This document shows positions 8,551-46,191 of a stretch of 64,000 bases of DNA, one piece after another (position 1 is the first letter of the stretch; every line of letters starts with the position of its first letter). Below the pieces are notes generated by a model. The model was not told the DNA's origin. It saw nothing but the letters and a program-made list of their open reading frames with translations, and did not search any database. Origin of the DNA: Rhizobiales bacterium 32-66-11 (GTDB lineage: Bacteria > Pseudomonadota > Alphaproteobacteria > Rhizobiales > Xanthobacteraceae); NCBI GenBank assembly GCA_002304505.1, contig NCEH01000015.1, positions 1 through 64,000 on the forward strand, written 5' to 3'. A program made the translations under genes and the position numbers.

Positions 8551-9030
8551 TTAAGTGCTTTGTCCACCTTCGGTTTCCGTGTCGTCTCGGACTTCCCGGC
8601 GAATGCGTACCCGCTCGCGCGAGCTGACATTGAGCAGTTCGGCCGCGCGCCAGACCAGATTATCCTCGAATTCGGACAATGCACCATCGGCATAAGCGAC
8701 TTCGAACATCATCTCCACCACCCGCTCGCGGCCCTGGTCGTCCAGGGCGCGGTTCAGGATGCTGGTAAAGGAATAGAGATCAACCGCTTCCGCGTCGCGC
8801 GCGATGGCGAGGTCCACGAGTGTGTCGGTCTCGGTGTCGGCGAGGTCGAATCGTGTCGCCAGAACGGTTTTGAGCACGTTGCGTTCCTGCTCCGTCACGG
8901 CGCCGTCGATCGACATCACGTGCACGAGCAGCACCGCCGCGGCGAGACGGTAATCATTCTCCACGAAGGTGCTGGCGTCGCGGTGGCCGCCGGTGATTTC
9001 GGTGATGAAGTCGGACAGCGCGCGGAACAT
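8551..9030 (-). CDS. TerB family tellurite resistance-like protein
   Basis: A 159-residue, mostly helical acidic protein of the TerB superfamily. It shows the family signature of paired acidic helices, LAAAVLLVHVMSIDGAVTEQERNVLKTVL near the middle and EVAYADGALSEFEDNLVWRAAELLNV near the end. These form metal-binding sites in characterised TerB domains. Stand-alone copies like this are widespread in alphaproteobacteria, and no other ter gene is nearby, so tellurite resistance itself should not be assumed. ATG at 9030 has GGGGG seven bases upstream. It is followed after 52 bp by the amidotransferase pseudogene, probably one transcript. Confidence 0.85.
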   Translation of the reverse strand: MFRALSDFITEITGGHRDASTFVENDYRLAAAVLLVHVMSIDGAVTEQERNVLKTVLATRFDLADTETDTLVDLAIARDAEAVDLYSFTSILNRALDDQGRERVVEMMFEVAYADGALSEFEDNLVWRAAELLNVSSRERVRIRREVRDDTETEGGQST

Positions 9031-9144
9031 GTGACCCCCAGGCCGTGGCTCTGATCCAGTTGCCACGGGGTCAGGCGCCCTTGCAAGGCGCTGGGGCGGA
9101 AGGATTTGTCCCAAAAGGAAAAAGTCCCGGCTGTGACATTCCGG

Positions 9145-9399
9145 TCACTCGCCGTTCACGTTCGGCAGGGGCTTGCGCGTGGTGCCCTGGATGCGGTTCG
9201 CGGCATCGCCGGTGGAGGGGCGCGGCGGGGTGGGCGGGGGCGCAATCATCTGCTGGCGCGGCGCCGGCGGCGAGGTGTTCTGCCCCGGCACGCCGGGATA
9301 GGGGAAGGTCGGGGTCTGGTAGGGCTGGACGCGCTGCACCTGCGCCGCCGCTGGGGCGGCCACCAGCACGGCGGCGATCGCGATCAGGAGAAAACGCAT
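9145..9399 (-). CDS. Small secreted proline-rich protein
   Basis: An 84-residue protein with a clear Sec signal peptide (MRFLLIAIAAVLVAAPAAAQ, cut after Ala-Ala-Ala). The mature part is short and rich in Pro, Gln and Thr, for example PPAPRQQMIAPPPTPPRP, and looks disordered. A GAGG site lies seven bases before ATG at 9399. No family or function was recognised. The mature protein has no Cys. Its upstream region is AT-richer than the surroundings. Confidence 0.65.
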   Translation of the reverse strand: MRFLLIAIAAVLVAAPAAAQVQRVQPYQTPTFPYPGVPGQNTSPPAPRQQMIAPPPTPPRPSTGDAANRIQGTTRKPLPNVNGE

Positions 9400-9743
9400 T
9401 TGGACCTCATTCTGCCGTGCATATCGTAGCGATACCCCGCCACGTCTACCGTTCTTACGCGCTTGTGATTTCAAAATACCAACAGGCCGACAGGGTGCGC
9501 TGTTCCTACACGTTCTCGTGGCGCGCCTCGTGCTCCGGCTTCCTGGTCCGGCGTCGGGGCGGCGAGGCGTTCGACGTGCGGTCGAATTTCCCTAGGGGAG
9601 CTGGTGGAAAAAATTTGGTCAAGCGTGATCTTGACACTAGAAATCTCTGGCTTTGCCGTTATTTCTGGCCTGATTGAACGATCCGCAAATGATATTTCGA
9701 ATTGATTGCGTTTATCAGATGCAGTGTGACCTGCGTGTGCCGG
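9400..9743. other. Intergenic region, no gene seen
   Basis: A divergent spacer with unusually AT-rich stretches (about 9600-9720) compared with the rest of the window. The EcfG promoter for the PRC-barrel gene begins at its right edge. A CCCTAGGG palindrome lies near 9590. I see no ORF with coding character. Confidence 0.4.
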
Positions 9744-9768
9744 GGAACATAGCGGTGATGGTGACGTT
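9744..9768 (+). promoter_or_regulatory. EcfG-type promoter of the PRC-barrel gene
   Basis: GGAAC at 9744-9748 and CGTT at 9765-9768 with 16 bases between, the exact alphaproteobacterial EcfG pattern. It lies about 50 bases upstream of ATG 9820. Confidence 0.82.
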
Positions 9769-9819
9769 GCATTCTTCGTAATCCTGCGCTGAACGCGGCG
9801 CTAAAGAACGGAGTTTGCC

Positions 9820-10377
9820 ATGAACACGAAGATGCTCACCGTCACCGCCCTGGCCGCGCTTCTTGCCGGCCCCGCCTTCGCCCAGACCGCGACGCCGCCG
9901 AGCGCCGCGCCGTCCACGCCGTCCGCCACCACGCCGTCGACCGCCACCCCCTCCACCTCGACCAAGCCCTCGTCGTCTTCCAGCGCGATGCCGTCCACGG
10001 CGACCGGCTCCTCGGCCTTCATCGAGAGCCAGCAGCAGGAGCAGTGGCTCGCGAGCAATCTGATCGGCACCAAGGTGCGCGGCTCGGGCGACGAGAGCCT
10101 GGGCGAAGTGAACGACGTGCTGCTGGATCGCAACGGCGCCATGGTCGGCGCGGTGATCGGCGTCGGCGGCTTCCTCGGCGTCGGCGAGAAGGATGTCGCG
10201 GTGCCGTTCAATGCGCTCGAGCTGGTGCGCAATACCAACGGCGACACCCTGGTTCTGCGCAAGTCCAAGGACGAGCTGAAGGCGGCGCCGGAATTCAAGG
10301 AATATACCGCCCCGACCCCGGCCTCCACCAGCGGCACGACCGGCGCTCCGGCGACCACGACGCCTGCCGCGCGCTGA
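9820..10377 (+). CDS. Secreted PRC-barrel domain protein
   Basis: A 185-residue exported protein: signal peptide (MNTKMLTVTALAALLAGPAFAQ), then a Ser/Thr/Pro/Ala low-complexity linker to about residue 62. One PRC-barrel domain follows (WLASNLIGTKVRGSGDESLGEVNDVLLDRNGAMVGAVIGVGGFLGVGEKDVAVPFNALELV), then another Thr/Ala/Pro tail. PRC barrels are small beta domains with protein-binding roles; the exported ones in this order are often stress induced. GGAG sits eight bases before ATG. A consensus EcfG promoter upstream and a strong terminator downstream make it a single-gene general-stress unit. The precise role is unknown. Confidence 0.88.
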   Translation: MNTKMLTVTALAALLAGPAFAQTATPPSAAPSTPSATTPSTATPSTSTKPSSSSSAMPSTATGSSAFIESQQQEQWLASNLIGTKVRGSGDESLGEVNDVLLDRNGAMVGAVIGVGGFLGVGEKDVAVPFNALELVRNTNGDTLVLRKSKDELKAAPEFKEYTAPTPASTSGTTGAPATTTPAAR

Positions 10378-10399
10378 TCCGCGCATAGACCGACACATG

Positions 10400-10435
10400 G
10401 GGGTAGGTGCCGAAAGGCACCTGCCCCTTTCTTTT
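10400..10435 (+). terminator. Rho-independent terminator of the PRC-barrel gene
   Basis: GGGGTAGGTGCC (10400-10411), loop GAAA, GGCACCTGCCCC (10416-10427), then TTTCTTTT. A twelve-base-pair stem with one G-T wobble. Confidence 0.9.
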
Positions 10436-10571
10436 GGGATTTTCGCGGCGGCGAGCCGTCGCTGGCGAGCGCTATCCCTTCGTTTCGACGAAGATGCTAT
10501 CGTTCGTCGCGCGCCACGAAGCGGCCGCGCGCCGGGCGCGGAAATCCGCCCGAACGATGAAAGGGTAAGAC

Positions 10572-10970
10572 GTGTCCGACACGCCTCAGCCGCGGGGCTG
10601 TGCCCTGCTGGTGGAAGACGAACCGTTCGTCGCGATGGTGGCCGGTCAGATCCTGGCCGACGAGGGATTCGAGGTGGTCGAGGCCGCCTCGGCCGCCGCC
10701 GCGCTGTCGCATCTCGACGGTCGGCCGGGCGGCTATGTCCTGGCGGTGGTGGACCTTGGCCTGCCCGACATGCGGGGTGAGGCGCTGGTGGGGGAACTGC
10801 GCGGCCGTGCCGGGGATCTGCCGATCATCGTCGCAAGCGGGTACGACCTTGGGGAATTGAAGGATATTTTCACCACTGTCACAAAGGTCGCGCTGGTGAC
10901 CAAGCCCTATGACACCAGCGCCCTGCGCCGTGCGCTGGAAACCCTGGGATTTTCAGTGGGAACGGATTAA
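10572..10970 (+). CDS. Single-domain response regulator, FATGUY-like
   Basis: A 132-residue lone receiver domain: acidic pair in LVEDEP, phosphoacceptor Asp61 in AVVDLGLPD, Lys111 in VTKPYD. After strand 4 it reads IIVASGYD, close to the FATGUY motif of single-domain regulators that modulate PhyR phosphorylation in the alphaproteobacterial stress response (SdrG/MrrA type). That motif plus its place 1.3 kb from phyR suggests a role in the same phosphorelay; this is inference. Start is GTG 10572 with AAGGG seven bases upstream. No EcfG motif was seen in front of it. Confidence 0.82.
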   Translation: MSDTPQPRGCALLVEDEPFVAMVAGQILADEGFEVVEAASAAAALSHLDGRPGGYVLAVVDLGLPDMRGEALVGELRGRAGDLPIIVASGYDLGELKDIFTTVTKVALVTKPYDTSALRRALETLGFSVGTD

Positions 10971-11210
10971 GCGCCGACGGTCCCTTCTCGCATGCCCGTG
11001 GCATGCTCCCGGAGGGAGCCTGTCTTGCTTGGCGAGGGGGAGGCGAGCAGCGGCCATGTCGGAAGCTGGGGGGAGGGGAAGGGGTGAAAACCTCCGCCAC
11101 GTCCGCCGCTCAGTCTTTCAAACGCTGGCACGGGCCGCCGGTTCCTCCGCCGCCCACGCCGCGGCGGCTATTTTTGCATTGCACCCGTTCGCATCCCGGA
11201 TACCGTCGGC
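10971..11210. other. Spacer with two short hairpins
   Basis: Just after the response regulator, GCATGCC-CGT-GGCATGC (10990-11006) and TCCC-GGA-GGGA (11007-11017) form adjacent small hairpins without a T tract, perhaps a weak terminator. The rest up to the tandem repeat shows no coding signal. Confidence 0.4.
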
Positions 11211-11310
11211 AGGAGCCGGCAGGAGCCGGCAGGAGCCGGCAGGAGCCGGCAGGAGCCGGCAGGAGCCGGCAGGAGCCGGCAGGAGCCGGCAGGAGCCGGC
11301 AGGAGCCGGC
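11211..11310. repeat. Ten perfect copies of a 10-bp tandem repeat
   Basis: AGGAGCCGGC is repeated ten times without a change, flanked by a partial unit on each side. It lies in an intergenic region just before a terminator for the minus-strand genes. Because 10 is not divisible by three, a frame through it repeats a 10-residue Arg/Gln/Glu/Pro/Ala/Gly pattern, which I do not take as a gene. Copy number is likely variable between strains. Confidence 0.95.
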
Positions 11311-11337
11311 AGGACACGCGGCCGGGAGCTTCCGGCG

Positions 11338-11365
11338 AAAAAAGACCCCGGAGGAACCGGGGTCT
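11338..11365 (-). terminator. Terminator of the YqjD/YqjE-like pair
   Basis: AGACCCCGG (11343-11351) pairs with CCGGGGTCT (11357-11365) around a five-base loop. Six A residues at 11338-11343 give the U tract on the minus strand, which is where the upstream genes read. Confidence 0.85.
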
Positions 11366-11437
11366 GATTTGCGCAGGGCCGAAGCCGAGGCCGCTTGATC
11401 GCGCGCGGACCGGGTCTCCGCTCCGCTCGAAAAGGCG

Positions 11438-11773
11438 CTACCGTCGGCGGCCGAACAGCACCGCCTGGCCCACGCCGATCAGAGCCGCCACCGCCACGGT
11501 GGCGATGGGATGGCGCTCCGCGACGCGCGTCACCGAGGCGAATGCGCCCAGCGACAGGGGCGCCATCCCCTGGTTGCGGCGCCCGGCGGTGGCGATGGCT
11601 GCGAACAGGCCCGCCACCACGAAGCCCGCCAGGGCGGTGAAGAGGGCCGCCAGCGTCGGATCATAATGCTGGCTCAGCGCCTGATAGAGGCAGATGGCCA
11701 GGAATGCCGCGCCGATCCACAGGAAGCCGACGGCGAGGAAGATCAGCAGCGCGCGGGCCGCCATGGACTTCAC
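11438..11773 (-). CDS. Small membrane protein, YqjE/holin-like
   Basis: A 111-residue protein with two membrane segments near the N-terminus (MAARALLIFLAVGFLWIGAAFLAICLYQAL and PTLAALFTALAGFVVAGLFAAIATA), a hydrophobic C-terminal stretch (IATVAVAALIGVGQAVLFG) and a final Arg cluster. Length and order match the YqjE-type partner of YqjD proteins; the family call rests on architecture and context. GTG 11773 overlaps the upstream stop as GTGA, so the two are translationally coupled; ATG 11764 is an alternative. It shares the EcfG promoter of the upstream gene. Confidence 0.7.
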   Translation of the reverse strand: MKSMAARALLIFLAVGFLWIGAAFLAICLYQALSQHYDPTLAALFTALAGFVVAGLFAAIATAGRRNQGMAPLSLGAFASVTRVAERHPIATVAVAALIGVGQAVLFGRRR

Positions 11774-12084
11774 CGCCGAACCAGCAACTGGCCGAGCAGG
11801 GCGCCGACGCCCGCTGCGATGGCGCAGGCGGCGAGAGGTTGGGCGACGATGCGCTCGCGCAGGGTGTTCATCTGCCCCTCGGCCCAATCGGTCACTTCGT
11901 CCGCTGCGGCCTCCGCTTCTCCGGCCGCGCCGCGCACGCCGTGGCGGGCGGTCTTGCCGAGGGTACCGACCAATTGCGCGAAATCGGCCCGCAGCTTTTC
12001 CAAATCCTGCCGCAGGTCCGCGAGGCTCGGCTCCACGCCGGCGTCGAAGGGCTTTCCGGGGTTCGCGTCCGGCTGATCGACCAT
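11770..12084 (-). CDS. DUF883/YqjD-like membrane-anchored protein
   Basis: A 104-residue protein with an amphipathic, coiled-coil-prone N-terminal half (LADLRQDLEKLRADFAQLVGTLG). It ends in one membrane segment, QPLAACAIAAGVGALLGQLLVRR, typical of the YqjD/ElaB (DUF883) family. E. coli relatives sit in the inner membrane and bind ribosomes in stationary phase; whether that holds here is unknown. ATG 12084 has GGAG upstream. A consensus EcfG promoter lies about 60 bases upstream, with a triplicated -35 hexamer, so the gene should be induced by general stress. Confidence 0.82.
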   Translation of the reverse strand: MVDQPDANPGKPFDAGVEPSLADLRQDLEKLRADFAQLVGTLGKTARHGVRGAAGEAEAAADEVTDWAEGQMNTLRERIVAQPLAACAIAAGVGALLGQLLVRR

Positions 12085-12141
12085 GCTCTTTTCTCCGCTG
12101 TGTGGAAGCTTTCGGGCGGGCCTTTACCCGCTCGCGCACAC

Positions 12142-12166
12142 AACGCGGGGACCGCTGTCCAGTTCC
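12142..12166 (-). promoter_or_regulatory. EcfG-type promoter with triplicated -35 element
   Basis: On the minus strand GGAAC (12166-12162), 16 bases, CGTT (12145-12142). Two more GGAAC copies follow upstream at six-base steps (up to about 12180), but only the first has the right spacing. Confidence 0.82.
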
Positions 12167-12224
12167 AGTTCCAGTTCCGGTCTCGGGAGAGCGGGGCCCT
12201 CCCCCGGGGACCGGACGAAGCGCG

Positions 12225-13013
12225 TCAGGCGGAACGCGCTTCCGGCCCGAGGGAGCGCGCCTCATGGAAGAACAGCGCCTGGGCGATGGTCGCCTTCACG
12301 GTCTCGCTCAGGAACGGCTTGGTGATGAGATAGGTCGGCTCCGGCCGCTCGCCAGTCAAAAGGCGATCGGGGAAGGCGGTGATGAAGATCACCGGCACGT
12401 TGAAGGTCTGGAGAATGTCGGTCACCGCATCGATGCCGGAGGAGCCGTCCGCCAGCTGGATGTCGGCGAGCACGAGGCCGAAGTCGCTCTGCTGTGCCAG
12501 TTCCACCGCCTTGGAATGGGTGGGCGCGACGCCCACCACTTCATGCCCGAGTTCGGTCACCAGGGTTTTCAGGTCGAGCGCGATCACCCATTCGTCCTCG
12601 ATGATGAGCACGCGGGTGGCCAGCTGCTCGTCGATCTCCTGTTGCGCGGCGACCACCTGGGCCTCCACCTCGTCCAGCGAGATCTGGAGAATGGAGGCCG
12701 CCTCGGCGAAGGAGAATCCTTCCATTGCCGTCAGCAGCAGCGCCACGCGGGAGGAGGAGTCCAGCAATTGCAGACGCTGGTCGGCACGGCTCGACACCGC
12801 CGCCTGGCCCTCCGGGCGCCGGGCCCACACATGGTGGAACGCCTGGTAGAGCGCGACCCGCGGCGATACCGAAAGATCCAGCGGCACGCTCGCGTCGAGG
12901 ACGCCTTGCAGGGTCGCCTGCACGATCGCGTCGCCGGCTTTCTGGGAGCCAAGAAGCGCGCGGGCATAGCGGCGCAAATAGGGAAGCTGCTTGATGAGCT
13001 GTTGCTGTGGCAT
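12225..13013 (-). CDS. phyR: Anti-anti-sigma factor PhyR
   Basis: Master regulator of the alphaproteobacterial general stress response. When phosphorylated, its sigma-like domain binds NepR and frees EcfG. The 262 residues are the usual length. The N-terminal EcfG-like domain covers about 1-125 (LPYLRRYARALLGSQKAGD, then the region-4-like FSFAEAASILQISLDEVEAQV). The C-terminal receiver has the acidic residues in LIIEDEW, phosphoacceptor Asp184 in LADIQLADG and Lys232 in ITKPF. ATG 13013 is the start. A consensus EcfG promoter at 13043-13067 indicates autoactivation. A degenerate HisKA_2 protein is divergently encoded 230 bp away, and ecfG and nepR lie 3-4 kb further. Confidence 0.96.
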   Translation of the reverse strand: MPQQQLIKQLPYLRRYARALLGSQKAGDAIVQATLQGVLDASVPLDLSVSPRVALYQAFHHVWARRPEGQAAVSSRADQRLQLLDSSSRVALLLTAMEGFSFAEAASILQISLDEVEAQVVAAQQEIDEQLATRVLIIEDEWVIALDLKTLVTELGHEVVGVAPTHSKAVELAQQSDFGLVLADIQLADGSSGIDAVTDILQTFNVPVIFITAFPDRLLTGERPEPTYLITKPFLSETVKATIAQALFFHEARSLGPEARSA

Positions 13014-13042
13014 GCTCTCTCGCCTCGGGACAGGTCGCTCAT

Positions 13043-13067
13043 AACGCGGCCGTGCGGGAAAAGTTCC
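13043..13067 (-). promoter_or_regulatory. EcfG-type promoter of phyR
   Basis: Minus strand: GGAAC (13067-13063), 16 bases, CGTTAT starting at 13046. About 30 bases before the phyR ATG. Its -35 region is one arm of a perfect inverted repeat shared with the plus-strand motif. Confidence 0.88.
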
Positions 13068-13075
13068 CGTGTATA

Positions 13076-13101
13076 GGAACTTTTCAACGCGCGTGCGCAT
13101 T
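13076..13101 (+). promoter_or_regulatory. Imperfect EcfG-like promoter toward the kinase-like gene
   Basis: GGAAC at 13076-13080, 17 bases, CATT at 13098-13101, one base off the -10 consensus. Together with the phyR -35 it makes the 10-bp inverted repeat GAAAAGTTCC/GGAACTTTTC (13058-13085, spacer 8). Confidence 0.5.
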
Positions 13102-13242
13102 ATAGACGTGGTCGGTCGACGTTGCAGCCTCCCACAGAGCTTCAGGTCGGCCGGCGTGAACTGTTCCGTGAAAACAGCAGGATCAGGCCTGGCGCAGCGG
13201 CCGGGTGGGGTGGTCAGAACAGGCCGAACCGCGGAGCGAGGC

Positions 13243-14976
13243 ATGTGGTGGGTGAGAGGCGAGGCGGCTCGGGCGCGTCATCGCGAACGGGCGGCCATCT
13301 TCGCTTCTGCGGTCGGACAACCGCGTCATTTGCTGGACAGCGTGCGGCGCGGCCTGCTGGTGGTGATCCTGCTGGCGATCGCGCCGATCGCCTCCGCGAG
13401 CATGTTGCAAGGTGTCCTGCAATTGCGGCGCGCGGGAGAAGAAGCGCAGCATCGGCTGCTCCAGGGGGCCATCGCCGGCGCCGGCAGCCAGCAGAATGTC
13501 TTTGCGTCCGCCGAGAACGTGCTTCAGGCGTTGAAGAATGTGCAGGCCGTGCGCGCCGCCGGCGGCGAATGCGCGCCCACCTTGTATGGCGCCACCTTGA
13601 GCCTGCCGTTTGCCTCCAACATCGCGCTGATCGGCAAGGACGGGCGCGTCGCGTGCTCGGCCCTGGCCGCGCCCGGGCAGGATCTGTCGAAGTACGAATG
13701 GTGGCGCGAGGTGCTCGCCTCCAAGGTGTTCGTGATCAGCCATCGGATGCTGAGCCCGATCACCCGCCAGCAGGTCCTCGCCGCCACACTCCCCCTTTAT
13801 GGCGATACCGGTGTGTTCGAGGGCGCGATCTCGATCGCGATCGACGCGGGCTGGCTGGACAATCTGCTGAAGCGCGAAACCCCCCTTAGCGACGGCGTCG
13901 CGGCAGTGCTGGACGATGATGGCACCGAGTTGGTCTCGAACGCGCCGGACATCTCGCGCCGCCTGTTCGCCGACACGGCCGCCGTGCAGACCTCCGGCGC
14001 GCTCGAGCAAGCGACCGACGAAGCCGGCCGCTCCTGGACCTTCGCCACCGCCCCGCTGGATCGCCAGGGGCTAAGGGTCGCGTTCGCCAAGCCCACCGAC
14101 CAGTTGTTCGCCTGGACCACCTTGCATGTCGCGGTGAGCTTCGTGCTGCCGGTGGTCATGGTGCTGTTCACGATCGTCGCCATCTGGCTCGCGACCGACC
14201 GCATCGTGCTGCAATGGCTGCTCTATCTGCGCCGGGTGACGGCGGTGTACGCGCAAGGCCATTATGGGTTCCGTCCCTCGCGCATGGGGGACGCGCCGAG
14301 TGAATTCCGGGTGCTCGGCAATGCCATCGAGGACATGGCGCTGGCGGTGCGCGAGCGCGACGGCAAGCTGCGCGAGGCGCTGGCGGAAAAGACCGCGCTG
14401 GTGCGCGAGATCCATCACCGCATCAAGAATTCGCTCCAGGTGGTGGTGTCCCTGCTCAGCCTCTACGGCTCGGGTATCCCGCAGGGGCCGGACCGGCGGC
14501 GGTTCGAGCAATTGCGCACGCGGGTGAACACACTCGCCGTGGTGCACCGCATCCTGTTCGAGGCCAATGAAGGATCGGAAGTGCGCCTGCGCGAGCTGCT
14601 GCGCGAGCTGAGCGCGCTGCTGGAGGGCTCTTCCGACCGCAATGTGATGGTGATCGTCGATGCCGAGGACGTCACCTTGTCCACCGATCTTGCGGTGCCG
14701 CTGGCTTTGATGCTTTCGGAAATCGTCATGGCGTTGTCCGTCAGCAAGGCGCGCGGGCCGGTGCGCATCGCGCTGCATTGCGTGCAGGAAGCGGAGCTGA
14801 TCGCGCTGCGCATCGAAATCGGCGAGCCGCTCGGCGATCGCCTGGCCGAGGGCAATGCGGACCTTGCCTATGGCTTCGCCCGGCAGATGGGCGGCTCCAT
14901 CGTCACGGAGGAGAGCCTGACCGGGGCGCGGGTGATCGTGCGCTTTCCCCCCCGCCAGATCCACCGGGCGACGTAA
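13243..14976 (+). CDS. HisKA_2-type sensor protein with degenerate ATP-binding domain (PhyP-like)
   Basis: A 577-residue membrane protein beside phyR. TM1 at about 36-55 and TM2 at about 295-317 bracket a periplasmic Cache-like sensor. A HAMP-like linker and HisKA_2 dimerisation domain follow, with EIHHRIKNSLQ at 390-399. The catalytic domain looks degraded. The N-box position reads SEIVMALSVSKA instead of an Asn-containing ELVTNALKHA, and the DxGxG and GxG boxes are absent (IEIGEPLGD, then GFARQMGGSI). It may therefore be a poor kinase and act mainly as a PhyR phosphatase, as reported for PhyP of Sphingomonas. Start ATG 13243 follows GGAGCGAGG. Sensor and PhyR link are strong from context; the activity is inference. 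Confidence 0.85.
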   Translation: MWWVRGEAARARHRERAAIFASAVGQPRHLLDSVRRGLLVVILLAIAPIASASMLQGVLQLRRAGEEAQHRLLQGAIAGAGSQQNVFASAENVLQALKNVQAVRAAGGECAPTLYGATLSLPFASNIALIGKDGRVACSALAAPGQDLSKYEWWREVLASKVFVISHRMLSPITRQQVLAATLPLYGDTGVFEGAISIAIDAGWLDNLLKRETPLSDGVAAVLDDDGTELVSNAPDISRRLFADTAAVQTSGALEQATDEAGRSWTFATAPLDRQGLRVAFAKPTDQLFAWTTLHVAVSFVLPVVMVLFTIVAIWLATDRIVLQWLLYLRRVTAVYAQGHYGFRPSRMGDAPSEFRVLGNAIEDMALAVRERDGKLREALAEKTALVREIHHRIKNSLQVVVSLLSLYGSGIPQGPDRRRFEQLRTRVNTLAVVHRILFEANEGSEVRLRELLRELSALLEGSSDRNVMVIVDAEDVTLSTDLAVPLALMLSEIVMALSVSKARGPVRIALHCVQEAELIALRIEIGEPLGDRLAEGNADLAYGFARQMGGSIVTEESLTGARVIVRFPPRQIHRAT

Positions 14977-15035
14977 CGCGATACCCTTATCCCGCGTACG
15001 GCACCCCGATAAGGACAGGTTCCTTGTCTTTAGTC

Positions 15036-15060
15036 GGAACCTCTCCCGCTCCCGCTCGTT
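15036..15060 (+). promoter_or_regulatory. EcfG-type promoter of the KGG-repeat gene
   Basis: GGAAC (15036-15040), 16 bases, CGTT (15057-15060), 53 bases before ATG 15114. Confidence 0.85.
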
Positions 15061-15113
15061 GTGTCGAGGAGTCTCAGGAAGGGCTCATTCCCCCAACGCT
15101 AAGGAGCGAGGAG

Positions 15114-15380
15114 ATGACGAAGGCTCAAGGAAAGGGCTCGTCCAACCGCGGCTTTGCGGCGATGGACGCCGAAAAGCAGCGTGCCATCGCCCGGAAGGGC
15201 GGCGAAAGCGTGCCTGCGGAAAAGCGCAGCTTCTCCCAGGATCGCGCTTTGGCCTCCGCCGCGGGGCGCAAGGGCGGTCAGAGCGTGGCGGACGAGGATC
15301 GCAGCTTCTCGCGTGATCGTTCGTTGGCTTCGCAGGCGGGCCAGAAAGGCGGCCAGGCCTCCCATTCCGGCCGGTCCTGA
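15114..15380 (+). CDS. KGG-repeat stress-induced hydrophilic protein (GsiB-like)
   Basis: An 88-residue, very hydrophilic protein with repeated KGG motifs (RAIARKGGESVPAEKRSF, SAAGRKGGQSVADEDRSF, SQAGQKGGQAS), the signature of the general stress protein family that includes GsiB and YciG. Such proteins behave as small disordered protectants in desiccation or salt stress; a direct activity is not known. AAGGAGCGAGGAG precedes the ATG. A consensus EcfG promoter and a strong terminator frame it as a single-gene general-stress unit between the sensor gene and ecfG. Confidence 0.9.
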   Translation: MTKAQGKGSSNRGFAAMDAEKQRAIARKGGESVPAEKRSFSQDRALASAAGRKGGQSVADEDRSFSRDRSLASQAGQKGGQASHSGRS

Positions 15381-15405
15381 GAACCGGCGGGATTCGTTGC
15401 CTGGG

Positions 15406-15440
15406 CGGGGAAGCCGGCTTGGCTTCCCCGTTTCTTTTTT
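15406..15440 (+). terminator. Rho-independent terminator of the KGG-repeat gene
   Basis: CGGGGAAGCC (15406-15415), loop GGCTT, GGCTTCCCCG (15421-15430), then TTTCTTTTTT. A perfect ten-base-pair stem. Confidence 0.93.
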
Positions 15441-15470
15441 GCGGTGGCGACGCATTTTGCCGGCATCCCG

Positions 15471-15495
15471 GGAACTTCGACCCGCGTCGTGCGTT
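15471..15495 (+). promoter_or_regulatory. EcfG-type promoter of ecfG (autoregulation)
   Basis: GGAAC (15471-15475), 16 bases, CGTT (15492-15495). Transcription would begin near 15502, leaving a leader of more than 100 bases before the favoured start codon. Confidence 0.87.
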
Positions 15496-15617
15496 AGGTC
15501 GGGAAGGAAGGGATGATACGCTTCGCGATCGCCATGGCTTTGGGTCCACGCCGACAGGCGTCGAGACCGGCCGTGCCGCTTTTCACCGGCGTGCGTCGTC
15601 CGGGTGGGAGGATGATC

Positions 15618-16250
15618 GTGGACGCACAGATCTGTCATCCAAAGGAAGCGGAAACCAGAAGCCCCATGGATGCTGACACCGAGACTTCCGCCCCCGTGGC
15701 TTTCGACCTGCGAACGCAGGTTCTGGGACTTCTCCCGGCTCTGCGCGCCTTCGCCCGCTCCTTGACGCGGAACCGCACCGAGGCGGACGACCTGGTGCAG
15801 GAGACGTTGCTGAAGGCGCTGTCGAACATCGACAAGTTCGATCCCGGCACCAATCTGCGGGCCTGGCTGTTCACCATCCTGCGCAATACCTATTACACCG
15901 AGATCCGCAAGCGCCGGCGCGAGAACGACGGCATGGCGACCTTGGCCCAGCAGGATTCCAACATGGGTCCGGGCCAGGAATGGGCGGTCACGCTCACCAG
16001 CCTCAAGGAAGCGCTGGAATTGCTGCCGGCGGACCAGCGCGAAGCGCTGGTGCTGGTGGGCGCGGCGGGCCTGTCCTACGAAGAGGCGGCCGATGTCTGC
16101 GGCTGTGCGCTCGGCACCATCAAAAGCCGGGTCAATCGTGCGCGCGCCAAGCTTCTGACCCTCATGGGCGCGGAAGACACCGCCGATGTGGTGGAGGGCG
16201 ATGCCCTCGCGATGTCGGCCGCCCGGGTCACCAGCAACAGCAGCACCTGA
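15618..16250 (+). CDS. ecfG: General stress response sigma factor EcfG
   Basis: ECF sigma factor of the EcfG (ECF15) group that drives GGAAC-N16-CGTT promoters. Region 2 is VLGLLPALRAFARSLTRNRTEADDLVQETLLKAL with LRAWLFTILRNTYYTEIRKRRREND. Region 4 is LPADQREALVLVGAAGLSYEEAADVCGCALGTIKSRVNRARAKL. The C-terminal tail (about 25 residues) is poorly conserved. The start is uncertain. GTG 15618 has GGGAGG six bases upstream; ATG 15666 (MDADTETS) is just before the conserved region; ATG 15513 would lie only about ten bases after the predicted transcript start. Its own promoter is EcfG type, so it should autoactivate. nepR converges on it from the right. Confidence 0.92.
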   Translation: MDAQICHPKEAETRSPMDADTETSAPVAFDLRTQVLGLLPALRAFARSLTRNRTEADDLVQETLLKALSNIDKFDPGTNLRAWLFTILRNTYYTEIRKRRRENDGMATLAQQDSNMGPGQEWAVTLTSLKEALELLPADQREALVLVGAAGLSYEEAADVCGCALGTIKSRVNRARAKLLTLMGAEDTADVVEGDALAMSAARVTSNSST

Positions 16251-16436
16251 GTCTTCCCGCGAGGATGGACCGCGCCGCTCGCCCGGCTCTGGCGTTCGCG
16301 CGTCCGTGCGGGCACAGCTCCCTCATCCCTTCGCTACCCCCCATTCCGCCATTCCGGCCGGCGCAGGGCCCCTTGAATCTTTCCGGAATCCCAGGACGGG
16401 GCCGCCGCTTGCGGATGGGGAAATCAATCCCGATCG

Positions 16437-16483
16437 AAAAAACAAAAACGCGGCACCTCTTCCTTTAGGGAAGGGATGTCGCG
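16437..16483 (-). terminator. Terminator of nepR
   Basis: A long imperfect stem (left arm from CGCGGCACCTCTTCC at 16449, right arm ending GTCGCG at 16483) is preceded on the plus strand by A-rich 16437-16448, which gives a U-rich tail on the minus strand. It lies in the 258 bp between the convergent ecfG and nepR genes. Confidence 0.75.
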
Positions 16484-16508
16484 TGCGAACAGACGGGGCG
16501 GGCGGGTG

Positions 16509-16730
16509 TCACGCCTCGTCTTTTTCCTTCGGCGCGTCGGGAGCCGCTGGCGTGGCGTCGGCATTCGCGTCGCCCCCGGATCGGGCCTGAACCGCGCCCT
16601 GCAATTGCTGCGCGAGGCGCAGCAGATCGTCGGGCACGTCTTCCTGGGTGAATTCATCGAACAGCTGGCGCAGTTCCTTACCCAGAAGATCCTGGCGTGC
16701 GGAAATGTCCCTGCGATGAGGGGCTCGCAT
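16509..16730 (-). CDS. nepR: Anti-sigma factor NepR
   Basis: A 73-residue NepR-family anti-sigma factor that holds EcfG until phospho-PhyR displaces it. The core LLGKELRQLFDEFTQEDVPDDLLRLAQQL (residues 15-43) matches the family pattern of two short helices joined by a V/I-P turn. The C-terminal 30 residues (GGDANADATPAAPDAPKEKDEA) are disordered and acidic. Start ATG 16730 has AGAGGAAGG upstream; ATG 16757 is an alternative that adds nine residues. It is encoded convergently to ecfG, not as the more usual nepR-ecfG operon. I saw no EcfG motif directly upstream, so its control may differ from that of ecfG and phyR. Confidence 0.88.
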   Translation of the reverse strand: MRAPHRRDISARQDLLGKELRQLFDEFTQEDVPDDLLRLAQQLQGAVQARSGGDANADATPAAPDAPKEKDEA

Positions 16731-16911
16731 ACCGCCTTCCTCTCTTTGGTCCTGCATGGTCACGGTTTGGTCTGGACGCAGAGTGCGCATGACGTGGGTT
16801 CGCCAAATGGCAGGTGGGCACTGCACAAGAGCAAGCCAAGCTTTGCCATGTCAGTATCCGTACCTGCAAGGGGCCAGTATGGAAAGGGACGCGGGCGGGC
16901 GATGGAAGGTG

Positions 16912-17217
16912 TCATTCGCGATACAACCGCGATGAGCCATCCGCGGGCCCACTGTCATTGTCCCAACGCGGGGTGTGCGCCGGGGCCGGCGGCCGAGGCA
17001 GCGGGCGCTGGGCTTTGCCGGGGGTCTCTCCGTCGCCGATGGCGGCCGAGACCGCGCGCAGATGCCGGCGCTCCTCGTCCGGACCGCGGGGTTTGCGCGG
17101 ACGGGCATAATCACGCGGCGCCTGGGCGGGCGTGAATTCGCACTGGTCATATCCGTGCGGGGTCAAGACGCCCTGAGGCATGGTCTCTTCGGCCGGGTCA
17201 TGGTGCGGTCCGGGCAT
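16912..17217 (-). CDS. Proline/arginine-rich hypothetical protein, EcfG-regulated
   Basis: A 101-residue hydrophilic protein rich in Pro, Arg, Asp and His with no recognised domain. It starts [16 protein letters not shown], has one Cys, and looks disordered; [22 protein letters not shown] is the only helix-like part. The gene is supported by a strong ribosome site (GGCGGAGGAGAG) before ATG 17217 and by a consensus EcfG promoter 36 bases further up. It is divergent from the DUF1328 gene. A role in the general stress response is inferred from the promoter only. Confidence 0.65.
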
Positions 17218-17252
17218 TCTGCTCTCCTCCGCCTATGCACTATTCGCAGACA

Positions 17253-17277
17253 AACGCGGCGCCGGGGGCTTTGTTCC
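17253..17277 (-). promoter_or_regulatory. EcfG-type promoter of the Pro/Arg-rich protein gene
   Basis: Minus strand: GGAAC (17277-17273), 16 bases, CGTT (17256-17253), with the start codon at 17217. Confidence 0.83.
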
Positions 17278-17336
17278 GGCGGATCGGGTGGCGGCACAAA
17301 ATATTCCTCATCCCTCGCAAAGGCCGCTCGGAGGCG

Positions 17337-17361
17337 GGAACTCCTGCCGCATGAGGCGGTT
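17337..17361 (+). promoter_or_regulatory. Imperfect EcfG-like promoter of the DUF1328 gene
   Basis: GGAAC (17337-17341), 16 bases, GGTT (17358-17361), one base off consensus, about 80 bases before ATG 17444. Confidence 0.45.
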
Positions 17362-17443
17362 GACAGGGGCAAGGCTTCATTTGCCCCGCAGCGCGCCGCA
17401 TCAGGACGCGTCGCCGCCGGGGCACAACACGAAAGGCAATGCC

Positions 17444-17623
17444 ATGATCAGCTGGGCCATTACGTTTCTTGTGGTCGCCCTGATCGCCGCGGTCCTCGGC
17501 TTCGGCGCCATCGCCGGCACCGCCATCGAGATCGCGAAGATCATCTTCTATGTGGCGATCGTTTTGTTTCTCATCTCCGCGGTCGTCGGCTTCATGCGGC
17601 GCGGCGGGCGAAGCGTGCCCTGA
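17444..17623 (+). CDS. DUF1328 (YtjA-like) small membrane protein
   Basis: A 59-residue protein made of two membrane helices ([45 protein letters not shown]) and a short basic tail RRGGRS. Length and pattern match the DUF1328 family, often stress induced in alphaproteobacteria and of unknown function. AAAGG lies seven bases before ATG 17444. A one-mismatch EcfG motif upstream and a terminator downstream suggest a single-gene unit in the stress island. Confidence 0.85.
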
Positions 17624-17662
17624 GTGGCTCCGCGCCGGGCCGAGGGCGCGGCTCCAATCTGC

Positions 17663-17689
17663 AAACCCCGGCTTCGGCCGGGGTTTTCG
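17663..17689. terminator. Bidirectional terminator after the DUF1328 gene
   Basis: AAACCCCGGC (17663-17672), TTCG loop, GCCGGGGTTT (17677-17686), then T. The A and T runs on both sides let it work in either direction. Confidence 0.88.
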
Positions 17690-17716
17690 TATGTGCGGGC
17701 TAAAAACCGCGCGGCT

Positions 17717-17787
17717 AAAAAAAATGGCGGACCCCAAGATGGGCCCGCCAATGAAGATGACTTGGAGGCGTCGGCAGCAAGCCGACA
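17717..17787 (-). ncRNA. Candidate stress-regulated small RNA, about 70 nt
   Basis: Minus-strand unit with no ORF of coding character. Just after a near-consensus EcfG promoter come hairpin 1 (GTCGGC-TTGCT-GCCGAC, 17786-17770), a single-stranded linker with CCTCC (able to pair with Shine-Dalgarno sequences), and hairpin 2 (TGGCGGGCCC, six-base loop, GGGTCCGCCA, 17750-17725). Eight U residues follow (17724-17717). Promoter, two stems, an anti-SD linker and an intrinsic terminator are the usual anatomy of a trans-acting sRNA. I do not recognise a named family. The ends are estimates: the 5' end is set by the usual distance from the -10. Confidence 0.55.
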
Positions 17788-17794
17788 CGCAATC

Positions 17795-17819
17795 AACATG
17801 ATAACCCGGCTCTGGTTCC
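17795..17819 (-). promoter_or_regulatory. Near-consensus EcfG promoter of the candidate sRNA
   Basis: Minus strand: GGAAC (17819-17815), 16 bases, TGTT (17798-17795), one mismatch in the -10. Confidence 0.5.
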
Positions 17820-17860
17820 CTGCGAAACCACGCCGCGGTGGAAATAAAAAAGGCGGAAAA

Positions 17861-17890
17861 TAAAAAAGGGCGCCCCGGTGAGGGCGCCCT
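17861..17890 (-). terminator. Terminator of the lipoprotein operon
   Basis: AGGGCGCC (17867-17874) pairs with GGCGCCCT (17883-17890) around a seven-to-eight-base loop. The A run at 17862-17867 provides the U tract on the minus strand. Confidence 0.88.
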
Positions 17891-17927
17891 GATTGCTTGT
17901 GGCCCCAAATCCGGGGCAGGCGAGGCC

Positions 17928-18203
17928 TCAGGGGCAGGTGACGCGGTAGGAATTGCCATAGGCGTCGCGCGCCCAGCAAGCCTTGGGTGTGGTGGCCGCG
18001 CCGACGATCGCGCCGGTGGCGCCGCCGAGCACGCCGCCCACCACGGCGCCGCCGGCCGTGCCGGTGGCCGCGCCGCCAATCAAGGCACCCGCGCCAGCGC
18101 CGAGAAGACCGCCGCCGACAGCGCGATCAGATTCCGAATACTGGCTGCAGCCGCCGAGCGCCAAAGCCGCCGCGAACACGATGATAGCCGCCCTCATTTT
18201 CAT
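17928..18203 (-). CDS. Glycine-zipper lipoprotein (OsmB-like)
   Basis: A 91-residue outer-membrane-type lipoprotein: signal peptide with lipobox ALGGC (Cys at about 20). A glycine-zipper region follows (GGGLLGAGAGALIGGAATGTAGGAVVGGVLGGATGAIVG), then a short C-terminal part with two Cys (KACWARDAYGNSYRVTC). Similar small lipoproteins are osmotically or stress induced. ATG 18203 overlaps the upstream stop as ATGA and is preferred; ATG 18197 has GGAG at better spacing. It is the second gene of an EcfG-driven pair and is followed by a strong terminator. Confidence 0.87.
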   Translation of the reverse strand: MKMRAAIIVFAAALALGGCSQYSESDRAVGGGLLGAGAGALIGGAATGTAGGAVVGGVLGGATGAIVGAATTPKACWARDAYGNSYRVTCP

Positions 18204-18631
18204 CTCCACATATCCTTGTCGCCGGCGGGCGCCGGGATGCGTCCGGCCGATTGCCGCCGCGACGACGCACCTGTCATAGCATACAGCACATACCCGACGG
18301 TCAAGCCCACGACCACCGCGCCCAGCAGGATCGATCCCGGCTTGCGGGCCACCAGATCATGAGCCTGGTCGACGACGTCATCAATGTGACGCCCCGCCTC
18401 GTGGCGCCCCTTGCGCGCCAGGGAGAGGCCGTCAGCGGCGAGGCTCGCGGCCTCCCGCTCCAGTGATTTGACGGCGCTGCTAAGATAGCGCCCAGCTTCG
18501 TGTCGCGGTGTCCGCGTATTCTCCTCGGCGGCACCCGCAAGGGCCTCACCCAATAGGGTAATATCGTTGCGTAGAGCCTCCAGGCGCTTGGAAATGTCAG
18601 CGGTGGATGAGTGGGAGCCATATCCGAACAT
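18200..18631 (-). CDS. DUF883/YqjD-like membrane-anchored protein
   Basis: A 143-residue protein. Its long helical, charged N-terminal part (ADISKRLEALRNDITLLGEALAGAAEEN through RHIDDVVDQAHDLVARKPG) ends in one membrane segment, SILLGAVVVGLTVGYVLYAMTG, and a basic tail, the DUF883/YqjD plan. It is the second such gene in the island. ATG 18631 has GGAGAG eight bases upstream. A consensus EcfG promoter lies just above, and the stop overlaps the start of the glycine-zipper lipoprotein gene, so the two are co-translated. The function of the family in this order is not established. Confidence 0.8.
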   Translation of the reverse strand: MFGYGSHSSTADISKRLEALRNDITLLGEALAGAAEENTRTPRHEAGRYLSSAVKSLEREAASLAADGLSLARKGRHEAGRHIDDVVDQAHDLVARKPGSILLGAVVVGLTVGYVLYAMTGASSRRQSAGRIPAPAGDKDMWR

Positions 18632-18661
18632 TAGCGAGTCTCTCCGTGTGTTCCCGGAGAA

Positions 18662-18686
18662 AACGCACATGAGCGCCGTCGGTTCC
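18662..18686 (-). promoter_or_regulatory. EcfG-type promoter of the DUF883-lipoprotein operon
   Basis: Minus strand: GGAAC (18686-18682), 16 bases, CGTT (18665-18662), about 30 bases before ATG 18631. Confidence 0.85.
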
Positions 18687-18770
18687 GGCCGAGGTCGCGG
18701 TTGATCTATAAAATCGGACTCCAGCCACGCTTCAGAATTGACCATGGCGCTTTTTTGGTCGCATGTTAGG

Positions 18771-18796
18771 GGAACCTGAGGCCAAGCGGAGACGTT
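18771..18796 (+). promoter_or_regulatory. EcfG-type promoter of otsBA
   Basis: GGAAC (18771-18775), 17 bases, CGTT (18793-18796), 33 bases before ATG 18829. Trehalose genes are well-known general stress targets. Confidence 0.8.
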
Positions 18797-45672: not shown

Positions 45673-45944
45673 CCGCCGCGCTGAGGGCGCTCCTGCGCCC
45701 CGCTCCCACCCGCGCGGCGCGTCCTGCGGCGCGTCGTGACAGAACAGCGCCGATGACGATCTGTCCTTACGTAAATCCTAGGGCGCAATCATCGCAGGAC
45801 GCTCCTTCCGGCAACCGCCTCGGGCGGCACATGCCAGCCGGCGCCCTGCTTTTCCCTCGGCGCGACAAAGAATCGTCATATCCAGGTGCGCGGCCGCGCC
45901 TCGACCTTGACATGAAGCGGAGGTTGGCCGCTCCTGAACGCGCG
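45673..45944. other. Spacer between hemP and the riboswitch
   Basis: A GC hairpin without T tract (GGGCGC-TCCT-GCGCCC, 45685-45700) follows hemP. The remainder probably contains the promoter for the riboswitch transcript; a TTACGTAAAT patch at about 45770 is the only AT-rich part. No gene seen. Confidence 0.4.
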
Positions 45945-46142
45945 AATGGTTCTTCCGGCACGACGCACATGCCGGAGGTGAAATGGGAACGGGGGAGGGG
46001 CCGATGACGCCCTGAGCCCCGACCGCCCCCGCGACTGTGAGCGGCGAGCGGCCTTCCACGATGTCACTGAAGCAATCCCCTCAAGGTGCGCTTCGGGAAG
46101 ACGGGAGGCATGCGGCGACCCGCGAGTCAGGAGACCGGCCAG
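45945..46142 (+). promoter_or_regulatory. Cobalamin riboswitch
   Basis: The conserved blocks of the AdoCbl riboswitch appear in order: AATGGGAAC near 45980, CCCCCGCGACTGTGAGCGG (46026-46044), TCACTG (46064-46069), CGGGAAGACGGG (46094-46105) and GACCCGCGAGTCAGGAGACC (46117-46136). It ends 50 bases before the CbiM-like permease start, so B12 should repress cobalt uptake. Outer borders are approximate. Confidence 0.9.
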
Positions 46143-46191
46143 GCGCACGGATCTAACGCAGGCCGTCGGGTGAGACGGCGGAGGAGCAGTC

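Follow-up and report, generated by a model that had tools for sequence, protein, structure and literature searches.

The general stress locus in the 64-kb stretch of DNA analysed here (the window) raises the question of whether a short segment of its minus strand, 17819–17717, gives rise to a small RNA (sRNA) under the control of EcfG and, if so, what that RNA would do. An earlier note had proposed a trans-acting sRNA of about 70 nt with an anti-Shine-Dalgarno linker, and had named an Rfam search, covariation among relatives and target prediction as checks. On the evidence set out below, a real EcfG-controlled trans-acting sRNA is the most likely explanation.

Anatomy of the predicted sRNA and its locus

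The window holds the full general stress locus, made up of phyR, a kinase gene, ecfG, nepR, a DUF1328 gene, the sRNA, a glycine-zipper gene and otsBA (trehalose). The sRNA lies inside this locus with phyR, ecfG, nepR and otsBA, in a conserved order, and was thus rightly described as sitting among stress genes. The anti-anti-sigma response regulator gene phyR (12225–13244, minus strand) carries the Pfam domains PhyR_sigma2, PhyR_sigma-like and Response_reg; a dCache/HWE-type histidine kinase gene follows at about 13069–14976 (plus strand). The presumed activator gene ecfG (15513–16250, plus strand), with Sigma70 regions 2 and 4, is 77–97% identical to Xanthobacteraceae homologues (97% to the MAG 'Rhizobiales bacterium 24-66-13', 79–88% to Azorhizobium and Aquabacter), which places the host among Xanthobacteraceae-type Hyphomicrobiales. 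The anti-sigma factor gene nepR (16509–16826, minus strand) lies beside ecfG, and the upstream neighbour of the sRNA is a small glycine-zipper protein gene (17928–18209, minus strand; weak PF13488 match) that is syntenic in all relatives compared. Because their Pfam matches fall just under the curated cut-offs, the names nepR and glycine-zipper rest partly on position; the assignment of otsA follows from the adjacent otsB and from conserved synteny. Downstream of the sRNA, a GC-rich palindrome (17664–17685, direct reading) closes the convergent DUF1328 gene.

Direct reading of the minus strand recovers the layout exactly as claimed: the −35 box GGAAC of an EcfG-type promoter (17819–17815), a 16-nt spacer, the −10 box TGTT (17798–17795), a 5′ hairpin, CCTCC, a 10-bp hairpin and T8. 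From promoter to T-run the predicted transcript, with its inferred start site, spans 17790–17717 on the minus strand and is 70–74 nt long, in agreement with the length first proposed. The predicted 5′ hairpin, GUGUCGGC-UUGCU-GCCGACGC (17788–17768), has 6 bp or 8 bp according to where transcription is taken to begin. It leads into CCTCCA (17768–17763, of which CCTCC is 17768–17764), the proposed pairing seed, then into a variable linker (17762–17751) conserved within the genus only, and finally into an intrinsic terminator identified by terminator scan (17750–17717), which consists of a 10-bp stem with a 6-nt loop (17750–17725) and T8 (17724–17717). In the 8-bp version of this stem, the first C of CCTCC takes part in pairing and CUCCA is the motif left open, so that the earlier picture of a 6-bp hairpin with an open CCTCC describes one possible fold but not the longer one. 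Across the copies and the start-site models, most predicted folds leave CUCCA unpaired, and they often pair the first C of CCTCC.

The arrangement is unlikely to have arisen by chance. None of 300 dinucleotide-preserving shuffles of the window yielded an EcfG-type promoter with a strict terminator at the spacing of the sRNA, and the real window has one; the RNA folding z-score is −6.3 against shuffles. A near-consensus EcfG promoter directly upstream and a location near the stress genes are both features of EcfG-controlled general-stress sRNAs; here nepR is about 1 kb and ecfG 1.5 kb away. The promoter is moreover one of 13 GGAAC-N16-18-GTT sites in an island of about 10 kb (8863–18796, or 8.8–18.9 kb), against 0.6 expected in shuffles, and the rest of the window contains a single such site; this island points to a dense cluster of the EcfG regulon at phyR, ecfG and otsBA. 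A sigma-70-like match at 17826–17798 was rejected, as it overlaps the EcfG boxes and is not kept in relatives on inspection of the aligned promoters.

The sRNA is single-copy in its own genome. The Rfam search placed it in no known family, none reaching the curated gathering score on the window sRNA, and over eight loci with sRNA copies it returned chance-level matches only. Elsewhere in the window, at 45930–46157 on the plus strand, lies a cobalamin riboswitch (Rfam RF00174, 106 bits).

Distribution, conservation and coding capacity

Further copies came from searching the GSR loci of relatives, and nine distinct sequences, the window's included, are now known from three genera of one family (Xanthobacteraceae); a same-genus genome is 89% identical. 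Carriers include Aquabacter strains, such as A. spiritensis DSM 9035 and A. cavernae. A simple pattern of hairpin plus CCTCC was swamped by chance matches, and addition of the promoter isolated the true relatives among the chance matches that remained. A covariance model run over 249 genomes of the family scored the nine copies at 74–93 bits (88 bits for the window) and the best other match at 27 bits; as the model was built from the same nine sequences, their own scores are bound to be high, and what is informative is the distance to 27 bits. With this model no copy was detected in the rest of the family, and BLASTN over the family gave matches in the window's own genus only. Two weak model matches in other GSR loci were discarded, one (L114) being a plain terminator behind phyR and the other (L108) a hairpin without EcfG boxes, and a scan of viral contigs with NepR found nothing.

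Loci from the three genera have in common the gene order phyR, kinase, ecfG, nepR, sRNA, glycine-zipper gene, otsBA. In L003 (same genus), L006, L007, L009 and L012, the sRNA lies just downstream of the glycine-zipper gene, with nepR on its other side. Azorhizobium keeps the gene order with no sRNA at the syntenic place, which indicates that the sRNA is lineage-restricted.

In the nine-copy alignment GGAAC, the GTT of the −10 box, the hairpin core and CCTCCA are invariant (9/9), while most of the spacer, the linker and the terminator sequence change. The check for covariation gave a divided result: at four base pairs of the terminator stem both partners change and the stem is preserved, whereas the 5′ hairpin has one pair with a compensatory change and three core pairs that never vary, its support from covariation being thin because the core is invariant.

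We considered whether the segment is instead a short protein-coding gene or leader peptide. One GTG-start frame is indeed open through the RNA in the window on direct reading; however, the 5′ hairpin loop measures 7, 8, 9 or 11 nt among the copies, differences that shift any frame and so exclude a shared one, and ATG is absent from seven of the nine predicted transcripts. A coding function is therefore scarcely credible, and the statement that the segment has no protein-coding character stands.

A second possibility is that the RNA derives from the 3′-UTR of the glycine-zipper mRNA, or is simply its terminator region, and has no promoter of its own. This would fit the fact that it always directly follows that gene in the same orientation, but the promoter boxes are conserved upstream of the sRNA, and each of the five loci compared has a separate terminator for the glycine-zipper gene, formed by a hairpin and a T-rich tail (the window, where a terminator scan places it at 17867–17890 on the minus strand, and L006, L007, L009 and L012). 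We regard such an origin as most unlikely. To judge from these conserved elements, the sRNA is a unit independent of the neighbouring transcripts.

Proposed action and candidate targets

We consider it likely that this is a general-stress sRNA, transcribed by EcfG, whose CUCCA/CCUCCA seed pairs with G-rich stretches and changes the translation of a set of mRNAs. Under stress, PhyR would free EcfG from NepR, and EcfG would then transcribe the 70–74 nt RNA from its own GGAAC-N16-TGTT promoter to its own terminator. The 5′ hairpin would protect the RNA and present the short single-stranded seed. Pairing of this seed with G-rich stretches in a set of mRNAs, for the most part at their Shine-Dalgarno sequences, may then alter their translation, with repression a more likely outcome than activation. 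From the anatomy and from the precedents of ReC64 and GsrN, described below, we infer that the sRNA is transcribed and controlled by EcfG; base pairing, the direction of the effect and the need for Hfq are likewise presumed. The narrow distribution of the RNA, the thin covariation of its 5′ hairpin, the often paired first C of CCTCC and a non-significant target scan within the window weigh against this reading.

CCTCCA is the sole invariant stretch in the predicted single-stranded region, which is otherwise variable, and this fits a pairing seed. Anti-Shine-Dalgarno action of the CCUCC region is plausible, and CCTCC may block the ribosome sites of many mRNAs, as the earlier note had suggested; a 5-nt seed is unspecific. 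Target prediction within the window singled out no specific mRNA: across its 43 ORFs the best duplex reached −21.1 kcal/mol, a value matched by a third of shuffled linkers. Nor do the ecfG, nepR and phyR leaders have a conserved GGAGG in common. The ribosome site of the glycine-zipper gene reads TGGAGA, complementary to CUCCA, in the same five loci (18205–18230 in the window); this could mark a neighbour target or be just a generic Shine-Dalgarno sequence.

That one short single-stranded motif is all that is conserved would also suit an RNA that uses its CUCCA stretch to titrate something else, such as another sRNA or a protein. We think this very unlikely, since no partner was found and the RNA lacks the repeated motif seen in protein-titrating RNAs.

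The direction of the effect deserves separate comment, as an EcfG-controlled sRNA might mainly activate its targets or pair away from the ribosome site. In Caulobacter crescentus, GsrN pairs with the very 5′ end of the katG mRNA and thereby increases KatG (PMC5869019), and katG has a GGAGG before its start in the window's host and in some relatives. Yet this GGAGG is the Shine-Dalgarno site, the complementarity amounts to five bases only, and a family search did not find katG in two sRNA carriers (G018 and G050) that are both reported to be at least 99% complete. We accordingly rejected katG as a conserved target and hold mainly activating or off-site pairing to be unlikely, although less so than titration or a 3′-UTR origin; seed pairing that changes translation, probably by repression, remains our preferred reading.

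Relation to known RNAs and to other stress loci

The closest precedents are found in Caulobacter and Rhizobium. GsrN, the most closely studied RNA of this kind, is controlled by the orthologous sigma factor and pairs via a C-rich loop, and its effect on katG, the target known for it, is activation and not a block; it is about 100 nt long with a full-length form that depends on Hfq, is cleaved into a stable 51–54 nt 5′ form, has six tandem C in the loop and was detected by published BLASTN in Caulobacteraceae only (PMC5869019). Tien et al. reported EcfG-regulated sRNAs near the stress locus across Alphaproteobacteria, with predictions in R. palustris and B. diazoefficiens (PMC5869019). The window sRNA resembles GsrN in its general-stress sigma factor promoter and in a terminal intrinsic terminator, possibly also in an exposed C-rich tract near the 5′ end, and it shares the setting of GsrN homologues, which usually lie beside the phyR-nepR-ecfG genes. 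Unlike GsrN, it is 70–74 nt long with CCUCC at the hairpin foot, and in place of six tandem C it has a shorter seed, CUCCA, which is conserved and mostly open, the first C of CCTCC often being paired. Across L015, L019 and L032, three GSR loci of the Caulobacterales type, nothing scored above background with our covariance model (R1).

ReC64 of Rhizobium etli (88 nt) owes its assignment as EcfG1-dependent to mutants, 5′ RACE, promoter fusions and reconstitution in E. coli (PMC3892343). Like the window sRNA it is a short RNA beside phyR with an EcfG promoter; it belongs to another lineage and occupies a different place in the locus, and the likeness noted here concerns layout. In S. meliloti, 23 sRNAs carry a motif for the same sigma factor (PMC3616915). 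The sRNA would work like GsrN and ReC64, and we do not claim membership in GsrN proper.

Anti-Shine-Dalgarno motifs in unpaired RNA also occur in alpha-r14/NfeR1 and the cuckoo RNAs, where they are used as seeds (PMC10746234, PMC3927594); NfeR1, from the same order as the host, silences mRNAs with such seeds (PMC10746234). Those RNAs fold into three or four hairpins whose loops each contain CCUCCUCCC, and the NfeR1 promoter is of the sigma-70 type. In contrast, the window sRNA has a single CCUCC outside the loop and an EcfG promoter, and lacks the CCUCCUCCC loops that mark members of that group.

The combination of an EcfG promoter, a C-rich short RNA and a terminator at phyR recurs elsewhere in the order, in three further families represented by 3–5 genomes each. 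For example, five genomes of another family (L115:4704–4805, plus strand; L168–L171) have an RNA of about 75 nt with CCCTTCCCGCGATGTGGACCTCT near phyR. In three genomes (L125:9464–9584, minus strand; L172 and L173) an RNA of about 95 nt with GGTCCTCCCCCGCATTCCCCTT lies directly downstream of phyR. In the last case (L117:9463–9615, plus strand), the RNA, also directly downstream of phyR, is about 127 nt long and carries CGCCTCCTCTTCCCCCC in a long hairpin loop, with similar DNA in four sister genomes (L174–L177). These RNAs show no obvious similarity to the window sRNA beyond layout. We tentatively suggest, as a possibility short of probable, that short RNAs driven by EcfG, with C-rich or anti-Shine-Dalgarno seeds, entered the alphaproteobacterial general stress locus on several separate occasions and have no common sequence ancestor. 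A single order would then contain four or more families that look unrelated, and the window sRNA would found one of them, a family absent from Rfam.

The sRNA joins a class already described from Caulobacter and Rhizobium and does not represent a novel type of system. Within a branch of the Xanthobacteraceae that has received little study, it would add a post-transcriptional arm to the general stress response, and a defined seed and a nine-sequence model are now available to test. Together with the candidates in three other families, it supports the view that an EcfG-driven C-rich sRNA beside phyR may be a standard, fast-evolving part of the stress system.
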